64,000 nt of DNA, from assembly GCA_020444515.1 (NCBI GenBank), contig JAHLKX010000002.1, forward strand, positions 1 to 64,000, read 5' to 3'. Source of the DNA: Bacteroidota bacterium. GTDB taxonomy: Bacteria; Bacteroidota; Bacteroidia; Bacteroidales; JAADJA01. The position numbers and the translations under genes were made by a program. Under the pieces are notes generated by a model that saw only the letters and a program-made list of their open reading frames with translations, was not told the origin of the DNA and searched no databases. Shown piece after piece: positions 18,694 through 42,839 of the stretch (the first letter of the stretch is position 1; each line of letters starts with the position of its first letter).

Positions 18694-19665
18694 ATGAAAG
18701 TATTAGTAACAGGAGGTGCCGGATACATTGGTAGTGTCCTGGTGCGGCAATTATTAAATCTGGATCATCAGGTCAGGGTGCTTGATTTGCTCAATTTTGG
18801 CGGTGAATCCATCGTGGAATTAATGAACGATCCGAATTTTGAATTTATCAAAGGTGATGTACGCAATCCGGATGATCAGGAAAAAACCCTGGAGGGTATG
18901 GATGCCGTTGTCAACCTTGCTGCCATCGTTGGTGATCCGGCTTGTGCAAAGCAACCTGATTTGGCCAGGGAAACCAATCTGGAAGCAACCAAGACATTAT
19001 ATACAATGGCCAATAAAAAGGGATTGAAGAAATTTGTTTTTGCCTCTACCTGTTCTAATTATGGAAAGATGTCCGACCCCAATTCCTATGTGAATGAAGA
19101 ATCTGAACTCTCACCGGTATCACTTTATGCTGAAACCAAAGTCGCAGGAGAGATATTTCTTCTAAGTCAGGATAGAAACAATGTTTGTAAACCTACCTGC
19201 CTCCGTTTTTCAACGGTTTATGGCTTAAGTCCGCGCATCCGTTTCGATTTAACGGTGAATGAATTTACAAGAGATGTAGCGATGGGTAAGGAGCTGGTTA
19301 TTTTCGGGGAACAATTCTGGCGGCCCTATTGTCATGTATTTGACCTGGCCAGGAGTGTAGTGCAGGTTTTAGAAAGTGATGAAGAAAAAACAGCATTCGA
19401 AGTCTTCAATGTAGGAGACACCAATGAAAATTATCAGAAACAAATGTTGGCTGATGAAATTAAAAAACAAATACCGGAGGCTAAGATAAGCTATGTAAAA
19501 AAAGATGAAGATCCCCGCGATTACAGGGTTTCTTTTAAAAAAATAAATGAACAACTTGAATTTAATATATCAAAAACGGTTCCTGAAGGAATTGCACAGG
19601 TGATCCAGGTTATTCAGGATGGTTTTCTGGAAGATCCATACAATAAAAGGTACAAAAACATTTAG
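18694..19665 (+). CDS. NAD-dependent epimerase/dehydratase (extended SDR)
   Basis: Sugar-nucleotide-modifying SDR of 323 aa. The NAD motif GGAGYIG is at residues 7-13, AAIVGDPAC lies near residue 80, and the active-site Tyr145-x3-Lys149 is in SLYAETK. The usual serine region reads ASTCSNYG. The exact reaction (4-epimerase, 4-reductase or 4,6-dehydratase) cannot be assigned; the ACxKQPDLARETN segment is typical of a family commonly found next to aminotransferases and keto-sugar enzymes. It opens the AT-rich cluster and is followed after one base by the LegC-like aminotransferase, so the two are surely co-transcribed. Confidence 0.85.
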   Translation: MKVLVTGGAGYIGSVLVRQLLNLDHQVRVLDLLNFGGESIVELMNDPNFEFIKGDVRNPDDQEKTLEGMDAVVNLAAIVGDPACAKQPDLARETNLEATKTLYTMANKKGLKKFVFASTCSNYGKMSDPNSYVNEESELSPVSLYAETKVAGEIFLLSQDRNNVCKPTCLRFSTVYGLSPRIRFDLTVNEFTRDVAMGKELVIFGEQFWRPYCHVFDLARSVVQVLESDEEKTAFEVFNVGDTNENYQKQMLADEIKKQIPEAKISYVKKDEDPRDYRVSFKKINEQLEFNISKTVPEGIAQVIQVIQDGFLEDPYNKRYKNI

Positions 19666-19666
19666 T

Positions 19667-20812
19667 ATGCAGGAAATTGTCGATTTTATCAGACAGCTTT
19701 ATAATAGCAGTGAATTTATTCCCCTGCATGCTCCTGTCTTTATGGGTAACGAAAAGAAATACCTGAATGAGTGTATAGATTCTACTTTTGTTTCTTATGT
19801 TGGAAAATTCGTCACTCAGTTTGAAGAAATGACAGCTTCTTATACGGGTGCTAAACATGCAGTTGCCGTTGTAAATGGTACAGCTGCACTTCAAATTGCA
19901 CTAACTGTAACCGGAGTGGAAAAAGGTGATGAAGTGATCACCCAGCCACTCACTTTTGTAGCCACGGCCAATGCCATTGTGCATGCCGGCGCACAGCCTG
20001 TTTTTGTAGATGTGGACCGAGATACTTTGGGCATGTCACCGGAAAGCCTGAGTGATTTCCTGAATAAGAATACGTCATTTAATAAAGGTGTGTGTTTTAA
20101 TAAAATCACCGGAAAACCCATCAAAGCCATTGTGCCGGTGCATATTTTCGGACACCCCTGCCGGATTACAGAAATAGTTGAAATTGCTCGAAAATATAAT
20201 ATTAAGGTTGTAGAAGATTCAGCAGAGTCATTGGGTTCTTATTATCAGGGACAACATACAGGGACTTTTGGAGAAGTTGGTATTTTAAGTTATAACGGCA
20301 ATAAAACGATCACAACCGGTGGCGGTGGAATGATCATTACTGATAATGAAGATTTGGCTAAAAGGGCAAAACATATAACGACTACAGCAAAAGTACCCCA
20401 CCCCTGGGAATATGTACATGATGAAATTGCTTACAACTACCGGTTGACCAACTTGAATGCAGCTGTGGGCGTAGCACAAATGGAACAAATTGAAGAAATC
20501 CTTGAAAATAAAAGAAAAACGGCTCAGAAATACCAGACATTCTTTGAAATGAAAAATGCTGTTGATTTTATTAAGGAACCAATAAATTCCCACTCTAATT
20601 ATTGGCTAAATGCAATACTTTTTAACAATAGAAATGAACGCGATGCATTCCTGAAATATACAAATGAAAGGGGTATTATGACAAGGCCGATTTGGCAATT
20701 GATGAACAAACTTAAAATGTTTAAAAATGCACAAACCGATGACTTAATTAATGCCGAATGGTTGGAGCATAGAGTTGTTAACGTACCAAGCAGTATTAAA
20801 ATCCTAAATTAA
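19667..20812 (+). CDS. LegC-type PLP-dependent sugar aminotransferase (DegT/DnrJ/EryC1 family)
   Basis: Protein of 381 aa from ATG 19667, one base after the preceding stop; an in-frame ATG at 19619 would overlap the upstream gene. It has the LegC-like opening IPLHAPVFMGNEKKYLNECIDS and FVSYVGKFV, then VVNGTAALQIAL, VPVHIFGHPC, DSAESLGS, and the PLP lysine in SYNGNKT (Lys213). LegC enzymes aminate the C4 keto group of a nucleotide 4-keto-6-deoxy-HexNAc in legionaminic acid synthesis. Here no NeuB or hydrolysing 2-epimerase follows, so the amino sugar may instead be used directly or feed the unusual aldolase pathway next door. A GDP-perosamine-synthase-like role is an alternative. Confidence 0.85.
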   Translation: MQEIVDFIRQLYNSSEFIPLHAPVFMGNEKKYLNECIDSTFVSYVGKFVTQFEEMTASYTGAKHAVAVVNGTAALQIALTVTGVEKGDEVITQPLTFVATANAIVHAGAQPVFVDVDRDTLGMSPESLSDFLNKNTSFNKGVCFNKITGKPIKAIVPVHIFGHPCRITEIVEIARKYNIKVVEDSAESLGSYYQGQHTGTFGEVGILSYNGNKTITTGGGGMIITDNEDLAKRAKHITTTAKVPHPWEYVHDEIAYNYRLTNLNAAVGVAQMEQIEEILENKRKTAQKYQTFFEMKNAVDFIKEPINSHSNYWLNAILFNNRNERDAFLKYTNERGIMTRPIWQLMNKLKMFKNAQTDDLINAEWLEHRVVNVPSSIKILN

Positions 20813-20818
20813 TTTATT

Positions 20819-22366
20819 ATGAAAACGAAAAACTTCGAAGTACTTGATTGCACCCTGCGTGATGGCGGTTATTATACCAATTGGGATTTTGATGACGAAA
20901 TAGTAGAGCGTTACCTGAAGAACATAGATAAGCTGCCTGTGGACATCATAGAAATTGGATATCGAAGTATGCCTGAAAAAGATTACAAAGGCAAGTATTT
21001 TTATCTCCCGGATTTCGTCCTTGTTAAAATAGAAAAACTGAACATCAGTAAGGAAATTGCTATCATGTTCAATGAAAAAAGTGTTATACCTGAGCATCTG
21101 GATGTTTTGTTACCAGGATTGAAGCCAGTGGTATCTATTATCCGACTGGCAGTAAACCCTGAAAACTTTGATCGGGCTGTAATATTGGCAAAAGCTATTA
21201 AAGATAAAGGTTTTGATGTTACTTTTAATATGATGTATATGTCAAAGTATTATAAGGACGAAGCCTTTCTAAATAAACTCTCCCAAGCTGATGGTATTGT
21301 AAGGTATTTAAACCTGGTGGATTCATATGGTGGCTTACTTCCCAATCAGGTTAAAGAATTGGTTGAAGTAGTTAAATCAAAGACAAAAATTACCTTAGGG
21401 TATCACGGACATAACAATCTTGAGCTGGGTATGGCAAACTCATTGGTTGCGCTTGAAGCAGGATGTGAAATAGTGGATGGGACCATTACCGGTATGGGAA
21501 GAGGTGCAGGAAACTTAAAAACCGAATTGCTTTTAACGCATTTGGTTTCGCAAGGAATAGTTGATTTTGATTTTAATGCACTTTCAGCACTCGTTGAGGA
21601 ATTTGAAGAAATGCAAAAACATTATGGCTGGGGTACGAACCTACCATATATGGTTTCTGGGGCAAATTCTTTACCCCAGAGTGATGTAATGGAGTGGGTA
21701 ACGCAACGATGGTATTCATTTAACAGTATTATCCGGGCATTGCATATCCAAAAAGCGGGAGAAGACGATAACCTTAAATTATCGCTTTTTAAACCCGAAA
21801 AGAATTTTAAATATGTGATAATTATTGGTGGAGGCCTATCTGCCGTCAAGCACGCCGAAGCCGTAAAGCAATTTATTAAAAGCCTTGATGATGTCTGTAT
21901 TGTGCATGCCAGCTCAAAAAATGCCAAAAGCTATGAAGACGTAAATTGTAAGCAGTTTTATTGTCTGGTAGGAAATGAAGGACACCGACTTGAAAAAGTA
22001 TTTAATGATTTAAAAACATTTCATGGAGAATGCATTCTGCCTCCTTTTCCCAGAAAAATGGGTACTTATATTCCAGAAGTTTTAAGAAATAACTCTTTTG
22101 AACTGGAGAAGGTTAATTTTACAGATAAGTATAAAGATGCACATACATCATTGGCATTGCAAACTGCAATTGATTTGCAAGCTGAATTTGTTTATTTAGT
22201 TGGTTATGATGGGTATAACAAATCAGAAATAACCAGTAAAGAACAGGCTTTAATATCTGAGAATGAATATTTATTTGGTCGAATGATAAATTACAACTTC
22301 CAATTTAAAAGCCTTTTAAAAACTAATTATACTCTTATAGTAGATTCTATTTACGCAAAAGTTTAA
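20819..22366 (+). CDS. HMGL-type (DRE-TIM) aldolase fused to a C-terminal Rossmann-like domain
   Basis: Two-part protein of 515 aa. Residues 1-300 are a DRE-TIM barrel: LDCTLRDGG at 9-17 provides the catalytic Arg14 and metal ligand Asp15, and HGHNN at 196-200 gives the metal-binding histidines. This is the layout of 4-hydroxy-2-oxovalerate aldolase-like enzymes, which join or split pyruvate and an aldehyde. Residues about 325-515 form a separate domain starting with VIIIGGGLSAVKHAEAVKQ and including a conserved-looking LVGYDGYN segment; it resembles the DUF115-type Rossmann domain of Maf-like proteins, though I hold that loosely. It starts 6 bases after the aminotransferase and is followed by a CMP-sugar synthetase and a KDG-kinase-like gene, so a role in making a keto-deoxy sugar acid is inferred. 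Confidence 0.8.
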   Translation: MKTKNFEVLDCTLRDGGYYTNWDFDDEIVERYLKNIDKLPVDIIEIGYRSMPEKDYKGKYFYLPDFVLVKIEKLNISKEIAIMFNEKSVIPEHLDVLLPGLKPVVSIIRLAVNPENFDRAVILAKAIKDKGFDVTFNMMYMSKYYKDEAFLNKLSQADGIVRYLNLVDSYGGLLPNQVKELVEVVKSKTKITLGYHGHNNLELGMANSLVALEAGCEIVDGTITGMGRGAGNLKTELLLTHLVSQGIVDFDFNALSALVEEFEEMQKHYGWGTNLPYMVSGANSLPQSDVMEWVTQRWYSFNSIIRALHIQKAGEDDNLKLSLFKPEKNFKYVIIIGGGLSAVKHAEAVKQFIKSLDDVCIVHASSKNAKSYEDVNCKQFYCLVGNEGHRLEKVFNDLKTFHGECILPPFPRKMGTYIPEVLRNNSFELEKVNFTDKYKDAHTSLALQTAIDLQAEFVYLVGYDGYNKSEITSKEQALISENEYLFGRMINYNFQFKSLLKTNYTLIVDSIYAKV

Positions 22367-22374
22367 AGGATTAA

Positions 22375-23082
22375 ATGAACAAATCATTATCAGTTTTTCT
22401 TCCAACAAGAAAAGGAAGTCAAAGAGTAAATAATAAAAGTACACGACCTTTTTCTATCTTTAAAGAGGGGGGGCTGCTCGAATTGAAACTATCACAATTA
22501 ATTAAAATAGATTCTTTTGATGAAATTATTGTATCTTCAAATGATGAAAAGAGTTTGCAAATTGCGGAGAAATTCTACACCAAATCATCAAAAATTAGGA
22601 TTGTGAAAAGACCAGATTCGTTGGCAAATGCTGAAACTAAGCTCACAGAACTTATTAAATACGCAGGAGGGCTATGTAAGAGTGAGCATATATTATGGAC
22701 GCATGTTACTTCTCCATTTATTGATATGGATGATTACTATAAATCAATTAATACTTATTTTAGAGTAATTGAAAGCGATTTCGACTCACTGATGTCTGTA
22801 AAAAAACTGCAGACTTTTATTTGGGATAAAGAAAGCAATGATATTATTAATAGAAAGAATCAAGAAAAATGGCCCCGTACTCAGGATTTAAAAATATTGT
22901 ATGAAATTGATAGTGGAATATTTATCACCTCAAAAGAGATTTATTTAAAGTCAATAGATAGGATAGGTTCAAAGCCATATTTATATGAAATGGATGACAT
23001 AAAATCATTTGATATTGATTGGCCAAAAGATTTTGAAATTGCTGAAATCTTATTTGATCATTTAAAAGAAAAAATGAAATGA
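22375..23082 (+). CDS. CMP-sugar-acid synthetase (acylneuraminate cytidylyltransferase family)
   Basis: Protein of 235 aa. The N-terminal CTP-binding signature is FLPTRKGSQRVNNKSTRPF, a variant of the family's IPARxGSKRIxxKN. A DEIIVSSNDEKSLQIAE segment follows, then an ILWTHVTSPFID motif, a C-terminal DIDW metal-binding motif and a final helix. The family activates 2-keto-3-deoxy sugar acids (Neu5Ac, Kdn, legionaminic acid, Kdo-like) as CMP esters. It has a good AAGGA ribosome binding site and overlaps the kinase gene by 4 bases (ATGA), so aldolase, synthetase and kinase appear translationally coupled. Confidence 0.85.
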   Translation: MNKSLSVFLPTRKGSQRVNNKSTRPFSIFKEGGLLELKLSQLIKIDSFDEIIVSSNDEKSLQIAEKFYTKSSKIRIVKRPDSLANAETKLTELIKYAGGLCKSEHILWTHVTSPFIDMDDYYKSINTYFRVIESDFDSLMSVKKLQTFIWDKESNDIINRKNQEKWPRTQDLKILYEIDSGIFITSKEIYLKSIDRIGSKPYLYEMDDIKSFDIDWPKDFEIAEILFDHLKEKMK

Positions 23083-24107
23083 TAACCACTTTTGGTGAAA
23101 TCATGCTAAGAATCACACCTCAAGATGCAGGAGAGCGGATTCTGCAATCAGACAGCTTTAGGATAGAGCCCGGTGGAAGTGAGTCAAATGTGGCTATTGC
23201 CCTGGCGAATTTAGGAATGGAAACTCAATTCATTACTAGTTTACCGGATAATACACTTTCAGATAAAACTATACGGTATTTAAAAGAACATAATGTCTTA
23301 CCATGTATTTCAAAAATAGGCTCCCGGCTTGGCGTTTATTGGACAGAGACGGGAATAGGTCCTCGTAATTCATTTGTCATTTACGACAGGGATAATTCAG
23401 CATTTAGTCAGGCACAATACCATTACTTTAACTGGAATGAGATATTGCGAAAAACTGAATGGTTTCACTTTTCAGGCATTTCTCCTGCTGTGAGTGAATC
23501 GGTTGCTAGTCTTTTGCAGCGGGTTGTGAATGAATGTAATTGTCATTACTCCGTAGACTTAAACTATCGTAAAAGATTATGGAACTGGACAGGTAGAGAT
23601 CCTGAACACAACAATAAAGTAATGACAGGATTGTGTAAAAAAGCAAAATTAATTTCTGGAAACGAATCTGACTTTTCAGATATTTTTGGAATTGACAGTA
23701 CAAAAAAAAATTTAGATGACAAATATTTTGAAATAGCGGAAAAAGCGCTTGATAAGTTTCCTTTTACTAAATTTATATCCATTAGCAACCGGCAATCAAT
23801 TTCAGCAACAAGAAATGACTGGAATGGATTTTTGTTTGTTAATGGAAATGGGGAAATACAAATTTTTAAAAGTCATGCCTATCAATTAGACAATGTCATC
23901 GACCGCGTAGGAACAGGTGATAGCTTTGTTGCAGGAATTATCTATGGCCTGCTTAACTTTGGAATAGAAAAGTCCCAAAAAACAATAGATTTTGCTACTA
24001 CACTGGCTGCATTAAATCATACGACTAAAGGAGATGCAAGTACATTTAGTGAAAAAGATGTGTTTGATGTCATGAAAGCAAAAGGTTCCGGTAGGATTGT
24101 TAGGTAG
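23079..24107 (+). CDS. PfkB-family sugar kinase, 2-keto-3-deoxygluconate kinase-like
   Basis: Ribokinase-fold kinase of 342 aa. It opens with TFGEIMLRITP and GGSESNVAIALANLG, the KDG-kinase version of the N-terminal signature, followed by SVDLNYRKRLW. The anion hole and catalytic base are in GTGDS at residues 278-282 (Asp281). KDG kinases phosphorylate 2-keto-3-deoxy sugar acids at the terminal hydroxyl. Its ATG overlaps the stop of the CMP-synthetase gene. A catabolic Entner-Doudoroff-type kinase would be odd inside a capsule cluster; a role on the same keto-deoxy acid as its two upstream neighbours is more consistent. Confidence 0.85.
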   Translation: MITTFGEIMLRITPQDAGERILQSDSFRIEPGGSESNVAIALANLGMETQFITSLPDNTLSDKTIRYLKEHNVLPCISKIGSRLGVYWTETGIGPRNSFVIYDRDNSAFSQAQYHYFNWNEILRKTEWFHFSGISPAVSESVASLLQRVVNECNCHYSVDLNYRKRLWNWTGRDPEHNNKVMTGLCKKAKLISGNESDFSDIFGIDSTKKNLDDKYFEIAEKALDKFPFTKFISISNRQSISATRNDWNGFLFVNGNGEIQIFKSHAYQLDNVIDRVGTGDSFVAGIIYGLLNFGIEKSQKTIDFATTLAALNHTTKGDASTFSEKDVFDVMKAKGSGRIVR

Positions 24108-24197
24108 ATTTTTAATTATTTAAGCAAAGGTGACATATATAATTCAGAAAAATCATTGTAGATGTTTTAATCAATCTACTCAGTGCTCAGTCTCTCA

Positions 24198-25874
24198 ATG
24201 GCTATTAAAATCAAATTAACATCTGAACAAAAACAAAAGGGCCACTTTCTTAGAAATAGGGAGCTGGTCCTTTACATTGATGGGTTACGCCACGATGAAC
24301 ATATTTCATATGAAGTACGGGTGAAATGTCTTAAGGAAGCCATAAAAAGGTTCGACCATGATTTACAGGAAGCAGCAGATAAATTTAAGCATCATAAATT
24401 TGGTGCCTATCTTTGGCTTTTTACGCCAGATTTTATAAGGGGAGAAGAAATATCAGGTCTTTTTCGGATTTTTTATTTGCTTCAAATAATCGATTTTTTG
24501 TTGAAAAATGAAGAAGTTAATCAGGTAGATATTGAGGCGGTTTTACATCCATGGGTGAAGGAGCAATTAAAAGAAAAGGCCCCTAATATTTATTATAATC
24601 GTTTTGCTATTATGTTGAACATTTTTCATCAGTTTTTGCAAAATGCTAAGGATATATATAAAACGTACAGTTTTAATTTTAGAATGTTGGTAAGCAAATC
24701 AAACAATCCTTTTGATGGAACCTTGATTGATACATCATCAAATTATTCGAAAAACCGGTATGATGATATAGATAAAGTTAGTGATATTTTTAAAAAGGTT
24801 AAGTATTATTCCGGAGATCAGCTAGCAGTTAAAGGTATTGATAGTGGTAAAGCGGTTGTGTTTAAGCGGGAACTAAATATAAAAATCCTTATATTATCCT
24901 TTATTTCAAGTTTAAATATAATTCGCTTTTTAAATTCACATAAATCTGAAATACCTGCTACCCTTTATTATAACCATAAGGGATTTTATAAAATGATACT
25001 CTATTGGGATTTAGTAATGGCACAAAAGAGTATTGATTCATATTTGTCCAAATCCAAAATAAATTACATTGTCCAGGTATCTACACTCACGAAACCTCTT
25101 TATCGTTCTTTGATGATGCTGGCGAAACAACATGGTATTAAATATTTCCAGGTGGCTTCAAGGAGTTTAACGAAACTACGAAACTCCGAAAGGTTGTTGA
25201 AATGTGATGTGGAAGAATACAATCAAACTGCTCTTCCAGATGCCTACATCTTTAAGGATAGAAATAGCCGAAAAATTTTGAATAATTATCCAAAACTAAT
25301 GAAGAAAAGCTATGTCGGGACGCGTTTTATGATGAACAATCCAGTTTATAAGAACAATGAAAAAAAACCGGTTGCTTTATTTTTACTATTTAATCATAGA
25401 TCTGATGTAAGTAAAAAATTATTAAAAGCGGTGATAAAAACAAAGTCATATGAGCTTTGTGACACGATAATTTATCGTTGCCACCCCAGTTTTATTTTTA
25501 ACATTAAAACAATTAGGAACGCTTTTCCTGGTAAGCAAATCATTGATAATACAGGACAAGACTATAATGTATTAAATGATTACAGAATCTTAGCTGTTAG
25601 TGGTCCAACATCAGCAGCTTTGGAAGCTGTGAGTTATGGAAGTGTAGTTCATTGGGCATCCTATGTTTATGATGATGCCATTTTAATGGATGAAGTAATG
25701 AGTATTATTGGGATAAAATGTCCTGATAATCAAAAATTGGAACAAAGCTTATTACAATTATTTGCAGATTCAAATATGTTTCTCAAAAAATTGTTAAATG
25801 ATAAACAAAATATTAGTAAGTATTTTCATACCCAAAATTTAATTTCAGAACAAATACGTAATATCTTGAACTGA
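24198..25874 (+). CDS. Putative GT-B-like polysaccharide biosynthesis protein
   Basis: Large soluble protein of 558 aa (ATG 24198; a GTG at 24183 is also possible). I do not recognise a named family with certainty. Residues 290-340 contain a QVSTLTKPLYRSLMMLAKQ helix-strand unit; residues 420-500 read IIYRCHPSF, DNTGQDYNVL and AVSGPTSAALEAVSYG, the last being similar to nucleotide-sugar binding helices of GT-B capsule and sialic-acid-type transferases. Position after the CMP-synthetase and kinase makes it a candidate transferase for the CMP-activated sugar. This is inference. No signal peptide or membrane segment is evident. Confidence 0.6.
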   Translation: MAIKIKLTSEQKQKGHFLRNRELVLYIDGLRHDEHISYEVRVKCLKEAIKRFDHDLQEAADKFKHHKFGAYLWLFTPDFIRGEEISGLFRIFYLLQIIDFLLKNEEVNQVDIEAVLHPWVKEQLKEKAPNIYYNRFAIMLNIFHQFLQNAKDIYKTYSFNFRMLVSKSNNPFDGTLIDTSSNYSKNRYDDIDKVSDIFKKVKYYSGDQLAVKGIDSGKAVVFKRELNIKILILSFISSLNIIRFLNSHKSEIPATLYYNHKGFYKMILYWDLVMAQKSIDSYLSKSKINYIVQVSTLTKPLYRSLMMLAKQHGIKYFQVASRSLTKLRNSERLLKCDVEEYNQTALPDAYIFKDRNSRKILNNYPKLMKKSYVGTRFMMNNPVYKNNEKKPVALFLLFNHRSDVSKKLLKAVIKTKSYELCDTIIYRCHPSFIFNIKTIRNAFPGKQIIDNTGQDYNVLNDYRILAVSGPTSAALEAVSYGSVVHWASYVYDDAILMDEVMSIIGIKCPDNQKLEQSLLQLFADSNMFLKKLLNDKQNISKYFHTQNLISEQIRNILN

Positions 25875-32945: not shown

Positions 32946-34019
32946 ATGGCAGATACTGAATTTAATTATAGGAAATTATTTATTGATAAGGACTCATCAA
33001 TACTTGAGGCCTTAAAACAAATGGATAGTGTTGGTAAAAAATTATTGATCGTAACACAAAAGGATAAATTTTATAGTCTTATCAGCATTGGCGATCTTCA
33101 GCGGGCAATAATCAAGAATGTGCCAATGGATACAAAAATAAAAAATATTCTAAGGCGTAATATTTATGTTGCAGATGATAATGAAGATACCAATGCAATT
33201 AAAAAAAGAATGCTTGAATCAAGGGTAGAATTTATGCCAATTATTGATTCGGAAAAAAACATAATAAACATACTGTTTTGGGAGGACGTTTTTTCATCCG
33301 GTCAAAAAAGAATTATTAAAAAAATCAATTTACCGGTTGTTATTATGGCAGGAGGTAAAGGCACACGTCTAAAGCCTTTGACCAATGTACTCCCAAAAGC
33401 CTTGATTCCCATTGGAGAAAAAACCATGATTGAAGAGATCGTTGACCGGTTTGGGAATCATGATTGTAGTGACTTTTATATATCTGTTAATTATAAATCA
33501 GAGTTTATCGAGTTTTACATTGATAATCAAAAACTTCCTTATAATTTTATGTTTTTCAAAGAAAAAAAACCCCTGGGTACAGCCGGAAGTTTAACGCTAT
33601 TAAAGAATAAAATTCATCAAACATTCTTTGTGAGCAATTGTGATATATTGATTGAACAAGATTATTCTGAAATACTGGATTATCACAGAGCAAACCATAA
33701 TGAAATTACAATTGTTGCAGCATTAAAACATTATCCAATCCCTTATGGAACCATACAAACAGGAACAAATGGATCATTGACCAATTTAATAGAAAAACCT
33801 GAAATAACCTTTAAAATTAATTCAGGGATGTATATACTTGAACCAAATTTGTTGAATGAAATACCGGATAATGAGTTTTTTCATATCACTCAATTAATCG
33901 AAAAAGTGAAAAATCAAAAGGGTAAAGTTGGTGTTTTTCCAGTCAGTGAAAATTCATGGAAGGATATTGGAAATTGGGATGAGTATCTTACAACAGCCAA
34001 AATCAATAAATTTGGTTAA
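32946..34019 (+). CDS. CBS-domain sugar-1-phosphate nucleotidyltransferase (PtmE/LegF-like)
   Basis: Protein of 357 aa with a CBS pair at residues 5-120 (SSILEALKQMDSVGKKLLIV and SRVEFMPIIDSEKNI) fused to an NTP-transferase domain starting at about residue 133 with VVIMAGGKGTRLKPLTNVLPKALIPIG. It ends with a WKDIGNWDEYLTT segment. This fusion is the arrangement of PtmE in Campylobacter, which makes GDP-glucosamine for legionaminic acid. Together with the LegC-like aminotransferase it hints at a GDP-linked amino sugar route; GDP-mannose-type pyrophosphorylase activity is the alternative. Confidence 0.85.
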   Translation: MADTEFNYRKLFIDKDSSILEALKQMDSVGKKLLIVTQKDKFYSLISIGDLQRAIIKNVPMDTKIKNILRRNIYVADDNEDTNAIKKRMLESRVEFMPIIDSEKNIINILFWEDVFSSGQKRIIKKINLPVVIMAGGKGTRLKPLTNVLPKALIPIGEKTMIEEIVDRFGNHDCSDFYISVNYKSEFIEFYIDNQKLPYNFMFFKEKKPLGTAGSLTLLKNKIHQTFFVSNCDILIEQDYSEILDYHRANHNEITIVAALKHYPIPYGTIQTGTNGSLTNLIEKPEITFKINSGMYILEPNLLNEIPDNEFFHITQLIEKVKNQKGKVGVFPVSENSWKDIGNWDEYLTTAKINKFG

Positions 34020-35347: not shown

Positions 35348-35419
35348 AAATTTGCATTTATTTTATCCAATCCAAAATTATTGAATGAATTATTTTTTAA
35401 TAGAAATATTTTGATAACT

Positions 35420-36433
35420 GTGGACAATAAAAAATTATTAATAACAGGCGGCACTGGTTCATTTGGAAATGCAGTATTAAATCGATATGTTCTTTTAAAC
35501 GATTTTAGCGAAATACGTATTTTCAGCCGTGATGAAAAGAAACAGGACGACATGCGGAAGCGGTTAAACAGCTCCAAAGTCAAGTTTTACATTGGGGATG
35601 TGCGGAACAAAAGCAGTGTCAGTCATGCCATGAAGGGGGTGGATTATGTATTTCATGCAGCGGCCTTAAAACAGGTGCCCAGCTGTGAGTTTTTCCCCAT
35701 AGAAGCGTTAAAAACCAATGTGCTGGGCGCGGAAAATGTGCTGGAGGCGGCCCTGGAAAACCGTGTAAAGAAGGTGGTGGTGCTGAGCACCGATAAGGCC
35801 TGTTACCCCATAAATGCCATGGGCATGTCGAAGGCGATGATGGAAAAGGTGATGATCGCCCGCTCGAGGGAAAACGGAAACGGTAGCAGCATTTTGTGCG
35901 GCACCCGTTACGGAAACGTGATGGCCTCCCGTGGTTCTGTGATCCCGCTGTTTGCCGAACAGATCAAAAACGGACAGGAAATCACTATTACGGATCCAGA
36001 TATGACTCGCTTCATGATGACCCTTGAAGAAGCGGTGGAGCTGGTGCTGTATGCTTTTGAACATGCCAGCCCGGGGGATCTTTTTGTGCAGAAGTCGCCT
36101 GCAGCCACCATTGATACCCTGGCAAAAGCAATGGTGGAACTTTACAATGCAAATAACTCGATAAAAATAATCGGCACACGCCACGGCGAAAAGCAATTCG
36201 AGACCCTGGTGAACCGAGAGGAGATGGTAAAGGCACAGGATCTGGGTAATTATTACAAAATACCTGCCGATAACCGGGACCTGAATTACAATCTATATTT
36301 TTCAAGCGGTGAATCGAGAGTGTCGACCATGGAGGAGTACAATTCGCACAATACGAAGAGGCTTGATGTGGAAGAGACAAAGAAATTATTGTTAAAACTC
36401 GATTTCATTAGGCAAGACTTAGGTCTTTCGTAA
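35420..36433 (+). CDS. capE: UDP-GlcNAc 4,6-dehydratase/5-epimerase CapE
   Basis: SDR of 337 aa from GTG 35420 (VDNKKLLITGGTGSFG); a TTG 13 codons earlier is less likely. NAD motif GGTGSFG, then FSRDEKKQDDM, HAAALKQVPSCEF and STDKACYPINAMGMSK. The last has methionine in place of the usual catalytic tyrosine ahead of lysine, as in CapE and PglF. CapE is the first enzyme of UDP-L-FucNAc synthesis. capF follows after 107 bases and capG after that. Base composition changes sharply near 35515, from AT-rich to GC-richer, inside the gene. Confidence 0.9.
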   Translation: MDNKKLLITGGTGSFGNAVLNRYVLLNDFSEIRIFSRDEKKQDDMRKRLNSSKVKFYIGDVRNKSSVSHAMKGVDYVFHAAALKQVPSCEFFPIEALKTNVLGAENVLEAALENRVKKVVVLSTDKACYPINAMGMSKAMMEKVMIARSRENGNGSSILCGTRYGNVMASRGSVIPLFAEQIKNGQEITITDPDMTRFMMTLEEAVELVLYAFEHASPGDLFVQKSPAATIDTLAKAMVELYNANNSIKIIGTRHGEKQFETLVNREEMVKAQDLGNYYKIPADNRDLNYNLYFSSGESRVSTMEEYNSHNTKRLDVEETKKLLLKLDFIRQDLGLS

Positions 36434-36540
36434 ATTGGACGTTGATAACGTAGATTCAGCGGATAATAATAGACTTTACTATTTAACAATCTTTGCGATT
36501 CTGTTTGATCCGCGGCATTTGCGTTCAAACTAAAGAAAAA

Positions 36541-37659
36541 ATGATTAAAGTTGGAATTACAGGACAAGCTGGTTTCATGGGAACCCACTTGTTTAACTAT
36601 TTAGGTCTTTTTAAGGAGTTCCGGCATATTCCCTTTGAAGATTATTTTTTTGACGATGAGCAAGCGTTGATGGATTTTGTGGGGCAGTGCGATGTCATCG
36701 TTCATTTGGCTGCCATGAACCGTCATGGCGATCCGCAGGTGATCTATGATATGAACCTGGAGCTTGTGAGGAGCCTTATCCGGGCCTGCGAGGAAACCGG
36801 TTCGGCACCGCACATCCTGTTTTCCTCCTCCACCCAGGAAAAAAAGGACAATCCGTATGGCAAATCCAAACGGGAAGGGCGGGAGCTCCTGGAAGCCTGG
36901 GCGAAGCGAAGCGGTGCCCGATTTGCCGGGATGGTGATCCCCAATGTTTTCGGTCCCTTCGGTCATCCCTATTACAATTCCGTTGTGGCTACCTTTTGTC
37001 ATCAGCTGACCCACGGTGAAACCCCGCACATTGATGTGGACGGACATCTGAAGCTGATATACATCAATGAACTGGTTGAAGAATTTAAAAACCGGATACT
37101 GAATCCCGGAACCGACAGGGTTATTCGCTATGAGGTGCCTCCCCGTCATGAAGCGCATGTTTCAGAAATACGCTCCATCTTGGAGGAATTTAAAGATTCC
37201 TATTTCGAAAAGGGGAATATTCCTGACATCAACACCCCGTTCAGGCTGGCCCTTTTCAACACATTCCGCTGCTACATGCCAATCAACCGGTTCCCGTTTC
37301 CATACAAACTCAATACCGATGACCGGGGAATGTTTGTTGAACTGATCCGGGCCGGAACCTCCGGACAGTCTTCCTATTCGACCACCGTGCCGGGCATCAC
37401 CCGGGGCAACCATTTTCACACCCGCAAGGTAGAACGTTTTGCAGTGATAAAAGGTAAAGCGAGGATACAATTAAGAAAGACCGGAACAGATCAAGTGATA
37501 ACCTATGACCTGGATGGGGAAAGCCCTTCCTTTGTCGATATGCCCATCTGGTATACACACAACATCACCAATGTAGGCGATGAAGAATTGCTTACCATGT
37601 TCTGGATCAATGAGCCTTATAATCCTGCGGATCCTGATACTTATTTCGAGGAAGTTTAA
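36541..37659 (+). CDS. capF: Bifunctional capsular polysaccharide enzyme CapF (SDR plus cupin)
   Basis: Protein of 372 aa from ATG 36541. The N-terminal Rossmann domain has GITGQAGFMGTHL and a PYGKSKREGRELL active-site segment. The C-terminal cupin (about residues 255-372) has RGMFVELI, TRGNHFHTRKVERFAVIKG with metal-binding histidines, and a WYTHNITNVG motif. In CapF the cupin epimerises at C3 and the SDR domain reduces C4, giving UDP-6-deoxy-talose-type HexNAc. It sits between CapE and CapG in the canonical order for UDP-L-FucNAc. Codon use is GC-richer than the surrounding cluster. Confidence 0.93.
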   Translation: MIKVGITGQAGFMGTHLFNYLGLFKEFRHIPFEDYFFDDEQALMDFVGQCDVIVHLAAMNRHGDPQVIYDMNLELVRSLIRACEETGSAPHILFSSSTQEKKDNPYGKSKREGRELLEAWAKRSGARFAGMVIPNVFGPFGHPYYNSVVATFCHQLTHGETPHIDVDGHLKLIYINELVEEFKNRILNPGTDRVIRYEVPPRHEAHVSEIRSILEEFKDSYFEKGNIPDINTPFRLALFNTFRCYMPINRFPFPYKLNTDDRGMFVELIRAGTSGQSSYSTTVPGITRGNHFHTRKVERFAVIKGKARIQLRKTGTDQVITYDLDGESPSFVDMPIWYTHNITNVGDEELLTMFWINEPYNPADPDTYFEEV

Positions 37660-37723
37660 AATGGTCTGAATCGAAAGGTTCAAAGAAGCTCATGTTTTTT
37701 TAGAATCAAAAAACTTTTTATTG

Positions 37724-38869
37724 ATGACCCAATTTAACAAATCGAGTCTAAAGGTGGCCACCATTGTAGGCACCCGGCCCGAGATCATCCGGCTTTCGTC
37801 GGTCATAAAACGGCTGGATCAGTATTTAACCCAGGTTTTTATCCATACCGGGCAAAATTATGATTATGAATTAAATGAAATCTTTTTCAAGGATCTTGAA
37901 CTGAGACAACCGGATTATTATTTGAATGTTGATACAAGTTCTGTTGGTAAAGTATACGGCGAAACCATCATCAAATCAGAAGAGGTGTTTAAAAAAGAGA
38001 AGCCGGATGCTCTGCTGATCCTCGGGGATACCAACAGTTCCATTGCCGGGATCATTGCCAAACGGATGAGGATTCCAATCTTTCATATGGAAGCCGGTAA
38101 TCGCAGCTTTGATATGAATGTTCCTGAGGAGATCAACCGCAGGATCATTGATCATGTAGCTGATTTCAACCTGGTCTATACCGAACATGCACGGAGACAT
38201 CTTTTATCCGAAGGATTGCCTCATCGAAGAATTTATCTGACTGGTTCTCCGATGTACGAAGTGCTTCATGCAAATATGGATAAGATTGAAAAGTCTACTA
38301 TATTGTCTCAATTGGATTTAGAAAAGAAGAAATATTTTCTCGTAAGCACGCATAGAGAGGAAAATGTAGACAATCCTTCCAATTTGATTCAAATCATTGA
38401 TGTATTAAATCGCCTGGCTTCAGCATATGAATTTCCGGTAATTGTTTCTACACACCCCAGAACAAGGAAAAGGCTTGAATTGTTGAAAGATAAAAAGTTG
38501 GATCAAAGAATTCAATTCATGAAACCATTTGGGTTAAACGACTATGTGAATTTACAGATGAATGCACTGTGCACCATTTCAGATAGCGGAACAATCAGTG
38601 AGGAGTCGGCAATATTATCATTTCCAGCCATTTCAATTCGCCAATCAATGGAAAGGCCTGAAGCTCAGGACACAGGTACGATAATTTTATCAGGTTTCGA
38701 TTCTGATATTGTGTTTGACTCAGTTGGATTGGTTATTCATGAGCATGCACAAGGTAAATACAGTCACATTCCTTCTGAATATGCCATAAGCAATACATCA
38801 TGGCGGGTTTTGAAATTAATCATGGGTCATACCAAACTAAGCAATACGTGGTGGGGGATAAAAAAATAA
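37724..38869 (+). CDS. capG: UDP-N-acetyl sugar 2-epimerase CapG (WecB family)
   Basis: Non-hydrolysing 2-epimerase of 381 aa from ATG 37724. Key motifs are IVGTRPEIIRLSSV, LGDTNSS, HMEAGNRSFDMNVPEEINR and the C-terminal SDSGTISEESA nucleotide-binding motif. In the CapEFG route it completes UDP-L-FucNAc. The first ~500 bases share the GC-richer composition of capF, whereas from about 38260 the gene becomes AT-rich like the following genes, so the coding sequence looks mosaic. Confidence 0.93.
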   Translation: MTQFNKSSLKVATIVGTRPEIIRLSSVIKRLDQYLTQVFIHTGQNYDYELNEIFFKDLELRQPDYYLNVDTSSVGKVYGETIIKSEEVFKKEKPDALLILGDTNSSIAGIIAKRMRIPIFHMEAGNRSFDMNVPEEINRRIIDHVADFNLVYTEHARRHLLSEGLPHRRIYLTGSPMYEVLHANMDKIEKSTILSQLDLEKKKYFLVSTHREENVDNPSNLIQIIDVLNRLASAYEFPVIVSTHPRTRKRLELLKDKKLDQRIQFMKPFGLNDYVNLQMNALCTISDSGTISEESAILSFPAISIRQSMERPEAQDTGTIILSGFDSDIVFDSVGLVIHEHAQGKYSHIPSEYAISNTSWRVLKLIMGHTKLSNTWWGIKK

Positions 38870-39999
38870 AGATATTTTTTATAAAAGGAGGACGTGGTCA
38901 TTTAAACACAGCTTCTTATAATCGCTTTTTAATGATTAAAGAAATGGTTTCAATGCACTTCGAATGTGAAGTACAGGGATATAGAAAAAATTCAGAAAGA
39001 ATATTTAAGGGTAGTAGAATTTTGAATGCAATTCATTATCGTTTTTTGTTGATTAGTAACTCATTAAAAATTCCCAAATCCACAAATAAACAGTTAAATA
39101 TAATATTTCTTCTAAATACGGATCCTTTGGTTTTTTTATTAGTATGGATAGTAGCCAAATTAAAAAAATTGCTTATAATAAGTGAGCGAAATGAATATCC
39201 TGTTATCATAAGAAATGATAATAGCTATAAAGTTCTTTTTTATAGACTATTTATACTGTGGTGGCAATACAAAATTTTAGATGGCTTCTTTTTAATGACC
39301 GAACCACTTATCAACTTCTATTCAGCCCATGTAAGAAAGAATTGTATAATACAACTTTTACCGATGACAGTAGATTTTAATAGATTTACAAATCTGCAAA
39401 AAATCGACACTTGTAAATATTTATTTTATGCTGGAAGTTTGTCACAAAAGAAAGATGGAATAATTAGTCTTATAAGGGCATTTAATGATATAGAATATAA
39501 TGAAAATAATCTTGAATTATGGATAGCTGGCGGTGTAAGAGAGGAGGAATCTTATCACCATTTAAAATCATTAATTGCTAAGCTAGAATTAGAGAAACAT
39601 ATTAAATTATTAGGTACCATAGATAGAAATAAAATACCCCAATTAATATCTAATGCTTTGATTTTGGTTTTACCCAGGCCAAAAAGTATTCAAGCACAGG
39701 GAGGGTTTCCAACTAAATTAGGAGAATATTTGGCCTCAGGTAAACCTGTAATTGCCACTCGTGTTGGTGAAATACCAAAATATCTGAATGAAGATGAAGT
39801 CTTTTTTATTTCATCTGAACACATTGAAAAAGGTTTGGTAAATCGAATTAATCGTATCCTGTCAGACTATGATAAAGCTTTAATTATTGGCGAAAAAGGT
39901 AAAGAAAAAGCATTCGAATATTTCAGTACAACAAGAAATGCAGAAAAAATAAAAATATTGATTGATAAAATTGCTCAAAAGTCAATGCATTATGAATGA
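38848..39999 (+). CDS. Glycosyltransferase family 4
   Basis: GT-B glycosyltransferase of about 383 aa. The C-terminal domain has KYLFYAGSLSQKKDGIISLIRAF, LELWIAGGVREEE, and the donor-binding QAQGGFPTKLGEYLASGKPVIATRVGE (GGFPxKxxEYLAxGxP). The true start is uncertain: the frame opens at an ATG (38800) well inside capG, but GTG at 38848 or 38851 gives a more usual N terminus just before KKIKIFFIKGGRGHLNTASY and overlaps capG by only about 20 bases. Located directly after capG, it is a good candidate for FucNAc transfer (WbuB-like), though this is only positional. Confidence 0.8.
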   Translation: MVGDKKIKIFFIKGGRGHLNTASYNRFLMIKEMVSMHFECEVQGYRKNSERIFKGSRILNAIHYRFLLISNSLKIPKSTNKQLNIIFLLNTDPLVFLLVWIVAKLKKLLIISERNEYPVIIRNDNSYKVLFYRLFILWWQYKILDGFFLMTEPLINFYSAHVRKNCIIQLLPMTVDFNRFTNLQKIDTCKYLFYAGSLSQKKDGIISLIRAFNDIEYNENNLELWIAGGVREEESYHHLKSLIAKLELEKHIKLLGTIDRNKIPQLISNALILVLPRPKSIQAQGGFPTKLGEYLASGKPVIATRVGEIPKYLNEDEVFFISSEHIEKGLVNRINRILSDYDKALIIGEKGKEKAFEYFSTTRNAEKIKILIDKIAQKSMHYE

Positions 40000-41089
40000 A
40001 GTAATTTTATTATTTGCTGGTGATTTTATTCCTCCAGAAACCTCTGATTGCATATATTCGGAAGAATTATTACAAGTATTAAAAGATAAGGACTTTTCTA
40101 TTGTAAATCTCGAAACTCCAATAACAACATCTAATACGAAAATTGAAAAGACCGGAAACAATTTCAAACGACACCCAGATACCATAAAACATATAAATGA
40201 TGGATGTTTTGATGCAGTTGCACTGTCCAATAATCATATTCGTGATTACGGTGATACAGGGGTACTAGATACAATTGAAATATGCAAGCAAAACAAAATC
40301 AACACTGTAGGTGCAGGTAAAAATATTCAGGATGCACAAAAACCCTTAAGAATTCAAATCAAAGGAATTAAAATTTCAATACTGAATTACAGTGAACGGG
40401 AGTTTAACATAGCTGATGAAAAAAAAGCAGGAGCCAATCCTTACGATACAATTAGTTCTTTCTATGATATTCAAAAAGAGAAGTTAGAGAATGATCATGT
40501 AATTGTGGTTTATCATGGAGGTATAGAATATCAGTATTATCCCACACCCGAGATGGTAAGAAAATTTAAATACATGGTTGATATTGGAGCAGATGCTATT
40601 GTATCACATCATACGCATCGCTATAGTGGCTCAATTATTTATAAGGATAAACCTATAATGTTTGGATTGGGGAATTTTATTTCGCATACCAGAAGCAAAG
40701 TAACAAAAGATTGGCAAGTGGGGGTTATTGCCCGCCTTAGTTTTTTTAATAAAAAAATAAAATCTGAATTTGTTCCAACAATTATGAATGTTTCCTTTAA
40801 CCAGATTCACTTGTTTGAATGTTTTTATAGCATTTTAAATGAAATAGAAAGTATAAGTGAAAATATTGAGAACAAGGAGTTTTTTGAAAAATATTGGGCA
40901 AAGCAGGATTCTTTAGCCAAGAATGGGTTATACCTTTTTTTAAAATCAAATAGTAGGTTTAACTATAGATTGAAAAAATATTTTCCATTTGTTATTAGTA
41001 ATAAGCTAAATTCATTCAAGCGAAAAAATTTACTCAACTTGGTTCAATGTGATAGTCATAGAGAACGATTAATAAGAATTCTCAAATAA
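39992..41089 (+). CDS. CapA-family metallophosphatase-like protein
   Basis: Protein of 365 aa from ATG 39992, overlapping the preceding stop by 8 bases. It has the PGA_cap signatures: LLFAGDFIPPE, SIVNLETPIT, ALSNNHIRDYGDTGVLDTI, VYHGGIEYQYYPTPEM, VSHHTHRYSG and GLGNFISH, which supply the metal ligands of the calcineurin-like fold. The family is named after CapA of poly-gamma-glutamate capsules but is widespread in polysaccharide loci with unproven activity. No signal peptide is seen. Its place before an asparagine-synthase-like gene and an ATP-grasp gene could indicate a shared amide- or phosphate-linked decoration. Confidence 0.85.
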   Translation: MNEVILLFAGDFIPPETSDCIYSEELLQVLKDKDFSIVNLETPITTSNTKIEKTGNNFKRHPDTIKHINDGCFDAVALSNNHIRDYGDTGVLDTIEICKQNKINTVGAGKNIQDAQKPLRIQIKGIKISILNYSEREFNIADEKKAGANPYDTISSFYDIQKEKLENDHVIVVYHGGIEYQYYPTPEMVRKFKYMVDIGADAIVSHHTHRYSGSIIYKDKPIMFGLGNFISHTRSKVTKDWQVGVIARLSFFNKKIKSEFVPTIMNVSFNQIHLFECFYSILNEIESISENIENKEFFEKYWAKQDSLAKNGLYLFLKSNSRFNYRLKKYFPFVISNKLNSFKRKNLLNLVQCDSHRERLIRILK

Positions 41090-41106
41090 TACAATAAGTT
41101 ATAAAT

Positions 41107-42834
41107 ATGTGGGTAATTTCAAAGGAACAAATTAGATATAAAAATAGTACTCTCACTAGAAATCAATTTGACAATTACTATTTCTATTCAAATCAGGGTA
41201 TTTATTCTGATAAAAATAAAACCATTAAATGGTTTTATGATGGATATATTACCTCCAGGCAAAACTCTGAAGATAGGTTTAAACCATTAACAGGCTATTC
41301 TCTTTTAGAGAAAGTATTCGCACAATATAAAGAAGACTTTATACATCATGTAAAAGGTAATTTCATAATTATCATGTTTCAAAATAATTCGTTTAAAATT
41401 TTTTCAGACAGATTTGGTATTAAAAAGTTCTTTTATTGGAAGATTAGGCAGAGTTTTACTATTTCTGATGATATAGGTCTAATAGTTAGTGAGAGAAGTT
41501 CAATGCCATCACGAGAAAACATGATAATTTATTCGTTATTTTACCATTTTAGTGGAGCAAGAACATTTTTTGATGAAGTTTACCACAATTTACCTGCAGA
41601 AATTATTAGCCTAAAAAATTATAAACTCGAAAAAGGCTATTACTGGAATCCAGAAAATTTATTAATTCAGGTTAAAAAGAAAATAAGTATTAAAGAAATT
41701 TCAGAAGTATTATCTCTTGTAGTTGATAGTAATCTTGATTTAATTGATAAGGATAGAATTAGCCTTTCTCTAACTGGTGGGGCTGATACGAGAAATCTGC
41801 TGGCTATTTTCCTAAACAGAAAAATTAGACCCCATTTATATACATATGGTAATCCATTATCTGCTGACTGCATAAAAGCATCTAGAATATGTAAGGCGTT
41901 GAATTTGAGGCACGAGGTGCATGATATTCAAATGGACTCAATAACATTTGAAAAGTATGCCAGGAAAATTATTAAAGGGGGAGGAGGATTAGCATCGATT
42001 CACAGGGTTCATAGGATAATTGCGATAGAAAGGGAGCGGGCTTATGCCGATTCAATGTTTCTTGGAACATTAGGTGGTGAATATATTAAGGGTGTCAGCG
42101 AAGACGACTATATTGTACCTTCTTTAGTTTATGATAATTGGACAAATTCTACATATAATCATAAGTTATTAGGAGGTTATTTTGATAGAAAAAGGCTTCG
42201 CAACGATGTTAGCATTTCTGATAGTATTATTGACTTTATAAGAAATGAACCTTACATGAAAGGTGACATTTTATCTCGAAAACATAACGCTCTAAATTAC
42301 CTTACAGCCCATCTACATGATGCACAAGATGTTAATCTGTATAATGAAATTTTAGATTATGTTTTTACACCTTTTTTGGATATTGATTATATGGAAACAC
42401 TTTTTTCATCACAGTTTACTTTTGACCAAAAAGAAGTAGTTCCAAACAAAATTCTGCGTCGTTTGGAGAATCCTTTATATGCTTCACAGTTTCTGCAAAA
42501 AACCTATAAACCTCTGACAAAATTCCGCTATTCTGGTGAACATATCCCTTCTGAAGTTTTATTTAATAAATATTATGCGGGATTTATGAAAGTGATAAGA
42601 AAGAAAATAGCACCTAATTATCCTGCAAACTTTCCGCTTTCCCAATGGATGGAAACTTTTGTGAAACGGAATTTACCTTTATGTAATAATTATAGAATTT
42701 TACGTGAAACTTATGATATTGATGGAATGATTAAAGATTTGAATTCTGTAAAACTCATTCCTAAAGAGTCTTTTTGGTTGAAATATACGAATCCGATAAT
42801 GATGAGATTTATAATTGAAGAATTAAATCCCTGA
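41107..42834 (+). CDS. Asparagine-synthase-like amidotransferase lacking the N-terminal cysteine
   Basis: Protein of 575 aa with an AsnB-type two-domain layout. Residues 1-175 resemble the glutaminase half (FKIFSDRFGIKKFFYW is the DRxGxKPLYY motif), but residue 2 is Trp, not the catalytic Cys, so it cannot use glutamine in the usual way. The synthetase half has the PP-loop as SLTGGADTRNLLAI near residue 220. Such Cys-lacking proteins are found in polysaccharide and lasso-peptide clusters, where they adenylate a carboxylate. The next gene is an ATP-grasp ligase only 5 bases away. Substrate unknown. Confidence 0.85.
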   Translation: MWVISKEQIRYKNSTLTRNQFDNYYFYSNQGIYSDKNKTIKWFYDGYITSRQNSEDRFKPLTGYSLLEKVFAQYKEDFIHHVKGNFIIIMFQNNSFKIFSDRFGIKKFFYWKIRQSFTISDDIGLIVSERSSMPSRENMIIYSLFYHFSGARTFFDEVYHNLPAEIISLKNYKLEKGYYWNPENLLIQVKKKISIKEISEVLSLVVDSNLDLIDKDRISLSLTGGADTRNLLAIFLNRKIRPHLYTYGNPLSADCIKASRICKALNLRHEVHDIQMDSITFEKYARKIIKGGGGLASIHRVHRIIAIERERAYADSMFLGTLGGEYIKGVSEDDYIVPSLVYDNWTNSTYNHKLLGGYFDRKRLRNDVSISDSIIDFIRNEPYMKGDILSRKHNALNYLTAHLHDAQDVNLYNEILDYVFTPFLDIDYMETLFSSQFTFDQKEVVPNKILRRLENPLYASQFLQKTYKPLTKFRYSGEHIPSEVLFNKYYAGFMKVIRKKIAPNYPANFPLSQWMETFVKRNLPLCNNYRILRETYDIDGMIKDLNSVKLIPKESFWLKYTNPIMMRFIIEELNP

Positions 42835-42839
42835 AAAAA

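Follow-up and report, generated by a model that had tools for sequence, protein, structure and literature searches.

Gene content of the locus

This study concerns positions 18694-25874 of a 64 kb window (the whole stretch of DNA that was analysed), where the gene for a two-domain aldolase of the HMGL fold lies directly before that for a cytidylyltransferase of the kind that activates ulosonic acids with cytidine monophosphate (CMP). The window belongs to a genome of 5.0 Mb in 16 contigs that is 94.7% complete. Our analysis suggests that these two genes form the core of a module that would supply a CMP-activated 2-keto-3-deoxy sugar acid independently of the synthases NeuB and KdsA. A previous reading of the same DNA, referred to here as the original prediction, had described six adjacent co-directional genes with tight spacing or overlap up to a kinase gene; the coordinates of the open reading frames (ORFs) bear this out, all six being present on the + strand where it had placed them. 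The aldolase gene follows the LegC-type aminotransferase gene after 6 bases and precedes the cytidylyltransferase gene by 8 bases, the cytidylyltransferase and kinase genes overlap by 4 bases, and 75 bases separate the kinase gene from the last gene at 24183. For the aminotransferase gene, the ORF of which opens at 19619, an in-frame ATG at 19667, 1 base past the stop of the preceding gene, is the likelier start.

18694-19665, + strand: short-chain dehydrogenase/reductase (SDR); Epimerase family match, closest solved relative 6vo6
19667-20812 (ORF 19619-20812), + strand: LegC-family aminotransferase; DegT, TIGR04181 563.5 bits (cut-off 420)
20819-22366, + strand: HMGL-fold two-domain aldolase; PF00682 HMGL-like, PDB 3dxi E 1.2e-106
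21806-22363, + strand: C-terminal domain of the aldolase, predicted fold like MptE/DUF115 and GT29 sialyltransferases; structure model and Foldseek
22375-23082, + strand: CMP-ulosonate-type cytidylyltransferase, NeuA/PseF-like; PF02348 CTP_transf_3 41.1 bits (cut-off 22.6)
23079-24107, + strand: PfkB kinase of the 2-keto-3-deoxygluconate (KDG) kinase group; PDB 2afb E 8.5e-64
24183-25874, + strand: 563-residue protein, possible glycosyltransferase; no family match

The aldolase and its C-terminal domain

Residues 1 to ~312 of the aldolase form an HMGL/TIM barrel resembling 4-hydroxy-2-oxovalerate aldolases, and residues ~330-515 form a C-terminal domain. The motifs to which attention had been drawn are found in the barrel, LDCTLRDGG at residues 9-17 and HGHNN from residue 196. 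When the AlphaFold2 model of the N-terminal domain (predicted local distance difference test, pLDDT, 92.8) was compared with solved structures using Foldseek, the best match was 3dxi, followed by aldolases of the DmpG/AmnG type. No variation is seen at Arg14, Asp15, His196 and His198 across 50 aligned relatives, and these residues align with the Arg/Asp pair and two His residues of DmpG (1nvm), which we take to have a metal role.

The C-terminal domain is predicted to have a sialyltransferase/MptE-like fold, an assignment that is new here. In Foldseek its model (pLDDT 94.1) is closest to 8sd5 (M. jannaschii HPPK; E 7.7e-5, probability 1.00) and 5bo8 (the human sialyltransferase ST8SiaIII; E 2.4e-3, probability 0.98), with a TM-score of ~0.48, and the conserved stretches of the domain are GGG, PPxPRxMGTxxP, GYDGY, EN and TPTxY. 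MptE-like profile matches were found in the right place in five related loci (L107, L108, L094, L096 and L045), all weak, the best of 26.2 bits lying under the cut-off of 34.6; the C-terminal domain of the window itself gave no MptE-like profile match and no match among solved sequences. The domain may bind or transfer a CMP-sugar. Its presence was tabulated against that of a cytidylyltransferase gene in 84 rows with more than 1.5 kb downstream, 14 loci (duplicates and short copies) being excluded. A cytidylyltransferase lies within 5 kb on the same strand of 70 of the 73 aldolases with a profile-recognised C-terminal domain, versus six of the 11 without one; of these six, L094, L107 and L108 show the weak MptE-like match, as does L096. 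Short relatives of 322-337 residues with more than 1.5 kb downstream have a cytidylyltransferase in none of three cases.

Pairing of the aldolase with a cytidylyltransferase

An eight-sequence aldolase profile searched against named genomes gave at least 558 relatives, of which the best 80 loci were kept, and nine stretches from phylum genomes were added. Neighbourhoods were laid out for these nine stretches and for the 50 best of the 80 loci, and the resulting 59 correspond to 57 distinct ones, since two genomes are represented twice (L018/L045 and L025/L046). A CMP-ulosonate-type cytidylyltransferase lies from three genes before to four genes after the aldolase in 55 of the 59 (53 of 57 without repeats), being NeuA/PseF-like in 36 and KdsB-like in 19, with both types within that span in none; three of the misses (L039, L063 and L074) stop at a contig edge. 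Among 30 more distant loci the cytidylyltransferase was found within 8 kb in 25, the remainder being L081 (contig end), L090, L100 (1.4 kb downstream), L104 and L106, and in the phylum sample the pair is present in all nine full-length loci besides the window. The aldolase relatives span Bacteroidota, Pseudomonadota, Bacillota and Omnitrophota. The pairing of aldolase and cytidylyltransferase in the original prediction is supported, and its recurrence in several phyla shows that it does not arise by chance.

The type of the linked cytidylyltransferase is not constant. In the tree of the aldolases, 80 of the 90 rows carry a NeuA or KdsB label and 10 carry none, and the label needs 16 changes as counted by a quick method; the labels of the window row were assigned by hand and then checked, and L063, which ends at a contig edge, and L004 and L005, which have internal stops in the match listing, were left out of the alignments. 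The aldolase-linked cytidylyltransferases themselves cluster, needing six and five changes versus shuffled means of 31.9 and 28.4, values to be read with a warning about long branches. That a cytidylyltransferase is kept while its type is repeatedly swapped is as expected if both enzymes act sequentially and the sugar varies.

The cytidylyltransferase of the window is a CTP_transf_3 protein with an R-x-GS-x-RV stretch in its N-terminal part and a DIDW-x-x-DF-x-IAE stretch, containing D-x-D, in its C-terminal part. It scores 58.5 bits against PseF, under the named-subfamily cut-off of 205.7, and matches the NeuA structure 9t4z with an E of 2.7e-8. A GT29-type gene is exactly the third gene after the aldolase in L030, L031, L032, L034, L061 and L065, the family being confirmed in L034, and its product may be the transferase that uses the CMP-sugar. 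No aldolase match at E 1e-60 was obtained in the four genomes from the genus to which the window belongs (89-94% complete), and the set therefore looks like an accessory trait. At E 1e-15, no match was found in phage records, and the 17 matches in plasmid records all have less than 60% identity.

As a separate observation, locus L026 holds two HMGL-family genes in one genome (5561-7153 and 9204-10796), both distant from the window aldolase; the better-matching of the two has no nearby cytidylyltransferase.

Probable independence from NeuB and KdsA

The absence of NeuB from the window, on which the original prediction relied, extends to the whole genome, in the 5.0 Mb of which PF03102 had no match. 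KdsA is present on contig C3 with a score over the cut-off, and the only CTP_transf_3 gene besides that of the window lies on contig C14 (203 bits) and is probably KdsB-like, judging from its score class. INDEPENDENCE from NeuB and KdsA was considered across 57 genomes including that of the window, among which a NeuB match was found in 31, a few of them weak, and none in 26. Three genomes that are 98-99% complete (G054, G112 and G123) gave no NeuB or KdsA match at E 0.001; all CTP_transf_3 matches of G112 (two genes) and G123 (one gene) fall in aldolase loci, and at least one of the three CTP_transf_3 genes of G054 lies outside its aldolase locus. Three genomes without a stated completeness (G414, G424 and G425) gave no NeuB match, and KdsA matches only under the cut-off.

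Nor is either synthase consistently linked to the set. Of 88 neighbourhoods, 16 contain a NeuB-like gene and one contains KdsA. The NeuB-like genes were located using phmmer with two L107 proteins named NeuB by eye, and the positions obtained in L030 and L045 agree with PF03102 matches. A second cytidylyltransferase is present in 13 of these 16 neighbourhoods, as though the two routes did not share one. That the aldolase and the cytidylyltransferase work together and do not need NeuB is thus well supported by the genomic data.

These data also bear on the view that the cytidylyltransferase activates an acid made elsewhere, either the 3-deoxy-D-manno-octulosonic acid (Kdo) that depends on KdsA or a scavenged nonulosonic acid, with the aldolase modifying or recycling that acid, for instance through retro-aldol cleavage. 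The KdsA gene in the genome of the window speaks for this, as do the KdsB-like enzymes of 19 of the 59 loci, two of which were tested and score above the Kdo subfamily cut-off NF009905, although under the kdsB equivalog cut-off TIGR00466. However, the genome of the window has the C14 gene as a further cytidylyltransferase, the sole CTP_transf_3 gene of G123 is linked to the aldolase in a genome with neither NeuB nor KdsA match, and two types of cytidylyltransferase alternate beside one family of aldolases. We consider an acid made elsewhere improbable.

Phosphatase and kinase companions

An HAD_2 phosphatase is present in 38 of the 59 neighbourhoods, which suggests a phosphorylated aldehyde substrate; the one HAD protein tested scored under every named-phosphatase cut-off. 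A PfkB kinase was found in only three of 90 rows (the window, L029 and L107), none of which has a module-type HAD or HpcH gene, with the proviso that 11 of the 89 non-window rows have less than 2.5 kb downstream, so that a few genes for either enzyme could have escaped detection. The kinase that had been included in the proposed set is thus retained for a rare variant and rejected as a general member of the module; the phosphatase is the more frequent companion.

Identity among the three operon kinases is 46-56%, as against at most 42% with 31 further KDG-kinase-like proteins from the phylum, from which they are separated as one clade with a support of 99 in the Shimodaira-Hasegawa-like approximate likelihood ratio test (a quick tree that has long branches). 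Between the window and L107 the aldolases share only 32% identity (314 residues compared), and L107 also carries two NeuB-like genes and a further cytidylyltransferase-like gene downstream. On the aldolase tree the window (NeuA type with kinase), L029 (KdsB type with kinase) and L017 (KdsB type with HAD) form a clade with a support of 100, and this indicates that kinase and phosphatase, and likewise the two cytidylyltransferase types, are exchanged on a closely related background.

The substrate residues of the S. solfataricus KDG kinase are given as Gly34, Tyr90, Tyr106, Arg108, Arg166, Asp258 and Asp294 (PMC5334617). Their counterparts in the window kinase are Gly33, Tyr87, Tyr102, Arg104, Arg164, Asp281 and Asp319, paired by motif and, except for Asp319, via the Thermus enzyme 1v19, and all are invariant in the three operon kinases. 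The window kinase scores 172.4 bits against NF041332, under the KDG-kinase equivalog cut-off of 440. No other homologue of the kinase was found in the genome of the window at E 0.001, and the next kinase score among 395 phylum genomes is 324 bits versus 664 bits for the window's own, with a profile that includes the window sequence. These two results make a role as a housekeeping KDG kinase unlikely.

The SDR and the aminotransferase

The original prediction had counted the SDR and the LegC-type aminotransferase among the parts of the route, which neither their distribution nor their neighbours bear out, and both are rejected as members of it. Within the order, 50 of 295 genomes have LegC relatives (E 1e-90) and five of 393 have the aldolase (E 1e-60), the window's own genome being counted in both and the E limits being different. 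Among the 29 best other LegC loci, five have an SDR of the window type upstream and eight have a NeuB-like gene in the flank; neither the aldolase nor its cytidylyltransferases were found within their 1.5 kb flanks. The same figures tell against a single pathway of all six genes to an amino-ulosonic acid, in which the SDR and aminotransferase would act first and the aldolase next; the tight spacing from the SDR through the kinase is what favours such a pathway, which we consider very improbable because the first two genes lie outside the recurring set. A legionaminic acid pathway was likewise rejected, the SDR scoring 81.9 bits versus a LegB cut-off of 475 and the genome having no NeuB.

The best solved relative of the SDR is 6vo6 (E 1.1e-50), a putative sugar-nucleotide epimerase/dehydratase that we take to be Campylobacter Cj1427. 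Cj1427 is described as a GDP-heptose C4-dehydrogenase (PMC10680097). An SDR of this type together with an aminotransferase would fit the formation of a 4-amino sugar; the SDR is probably the nucleotide-sugar 4-oxidase of a separate amino-sugar pair, and the aminotransferase probably works with the SDR rather than with the aldolase.

Proposed route

We consider it fairly probable that the acid activated by the cytidylyltransferase is the product of the aldolase. The HMGL domain would couple pyruvate, as a metal enolate, with an aldehyde to give a 2-keto-3-deoxy acid. In most relatives the aldehyde would probably be a sugar phosphate, from the product of which the HAD phosphatase would then free the acid, and the adjacent NeuA- or KdsB-type enzyme would convert the acid to a CMP-sugar for a surface polysaccharide. 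In the rare variant of the window, a relative of KDG kinases would stand in place of the HAD phosphatase, with the keto-deoxy acid as its most likely substrate; that the kinase acts on this acid is plausible and falls just short of being probable. A laboratory precedent for the chemistry is provided by an in vitro enzymatic synthesis in which an aldolase joins N-acetylmannosamine and pyruvate and a CMP-sialic acid synthetase follows (PMC7729866).

Several observations weigh against this assignment of the aldolase. Tyr18, which is invariant in the 50 relatives, sits at the position of DmpG His21, presumably the catalytic His of DmpG-type 4-hydroxy-2-oxovalerate aldolases, and the score of 93.2 bits against TIGR03217 is far under the 4-hydroxy-2-oxovalerate aldolase equivalog cut-off of 286. 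L072 among the 59 neighbourhoods and L090, L104 and L106 among the distant loci have no nearby cytidylyltransferase, though none of them is cut short, and L092 has one on the other strand only. The neighbourhoods with a NeuB-like gene include that of L107, one of the three kinase cases. An HpcH/HpaI aldolase is also present in 10 of the 90 loci (L019, L020, L022, L037, L038, L079, L088, L094, L096 and L101), each of which thus holds two pyruvate-type aldolases; these 10 include the two G112 loci and the G054 locus, where this enzyme could be the one that forms the acid, whereas the locus of G123 is without it. Finally, no biochemistry on such a module was found in the open literature, and among the matches listed in open full texts, a scope outside which most subscription papers lie, there is no description of an aldolase-cytidylyltransferase module of this kind; the matches listed for known short ulosonic acids likewise held nothing of use.

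Two of these observations, the Tyr in place of the catalytic His and the HpcH/HpaI genes, of which five lie between the HMGL gene, directly after it, and the cytidylyltransferase gene, also favour the view that the HMGL domain does not form the acid; another enzyme, HpcH/HpaI where present, would do so, and the HMGL protein would perform a different step, for instance another aldol addition or a transfer carried out by its C-terminal domain. Since 80 of the 90 loci have no HpcH/HpaI within 3 kb and the 64 kb window has none, we regard this as being as improbable as an acid made elsewhere. A rather doubtful extension of the preferred assignment, in which the aldolase forms the acid, is that it is a double enzyme, the barrel building a short 2-keto-3-deoxy acid from pyruvate and the C-terminal domain binding or transferring the CMP-activated product; if so, one polypeptide would both make and transfer a novel kind of ulosonic acid.

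To our knowledge, the known CMP-activated ulosonic acids all come from phosphoenolpyruvate (PEP)-dependent synthases of the NeuB/KdsA kind. NeuB is commonly the marker in genome searches for such sugars, and a route through a pyruvate aldolase would escape them; if true, it would account for cytidylyltransferases without a synthase. Short 3-deoxy-ulosonic acids (C5-C7) are known from a few polysaccharides, and the route would make their origin directly testable with two proteins. The module would also suggest a function for the solved aldolase family of 3dxi, which has no function in its title.

Comparison with known systems

Among known systems the module comes nearest to CMP-ulosonate synthesis, to which it would add a new variant. 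Like the NeuB-NeuA pathways to sialic, legionaminic and pseudaminic acids, it has a CTP_transf_3 enzyme, would activate a 2-keto-3-deoxy sugar acid with CMP and lies in a polysaccharide locus, but an HMGL-fold aldolase takes the place of the PEP-dependent NeuB. The Kdo pathway proceeds through a synthase, an HAD phosphatase and a cytidylyltransferase (KdsA, KdsC and KdsB). The module would follow the same three-step logic, with a KdsB-like enzyme in about a third of the loci (19 of 59); however, its aldolase is not KdsA, and the window has a kinase and no such HAD protein. With the aldolases DmpG, BphI and AmnG the window aldolase shares the fold and the site of Arg-Asp and two His residues, whereas it has Tyr at the position of the presumed catalytic His, an extra C-terminal domain, and an aminotransferase and a cytidylyltransferase as neighbours instead of an acylating aldehyde dehydrogenase.

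The putative aldolase BVU_2661 from Bacteroides vulgatus (3dxi) belongs to the same family, with 52% identity over the N-terminal domain, but was solved as this domain alone. The window kinase shares its family and the substrate residues listed above with KDG kinases (2afb and FlKin from Flavobacterium), although the operon kinases form a separate clade linked to a cytidylyltransferase. The predicted fold of the C-terminal domain resembles those of MptE/DUF115 proteins and GT29 sialyltransferases; the domain differs in being under the Pfam cut-off and fused to an aldolase.

Other genes of the window

For the protein encoded at 24183, a possible glycosyltransferase that had been described as GT-B-like, searches of Pfam, NCBIfam and PHROG at E 0.001 gave no family, and the best hit among solved sequences (E 0.35) is not convincing as a relative. 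Further along the same cluster, positions 35381-38869 hold Polysacc_synt_2, Epimerase with Polysacc_synt_C, and Epimerase_2 genes, which fit the synthesis of UDP-N-acetyl-L-fucosamine, a product that we assume from their likeness to CapE/F/G. The gene at 32946-34019 encodes an NTP_transferase with a CBS domain that resembles the PtmE-type nucleotidyltransferase of legionaminic acid clusters; relatives occur in L030, L032 and L038, each with a NeuB-like gene. At 39962-43889, a PGA_cap capsule-synthesis protein (PF09587, 178.6 bits) adjoins weak amidotransferase-like and ATP-grasp-like matches.

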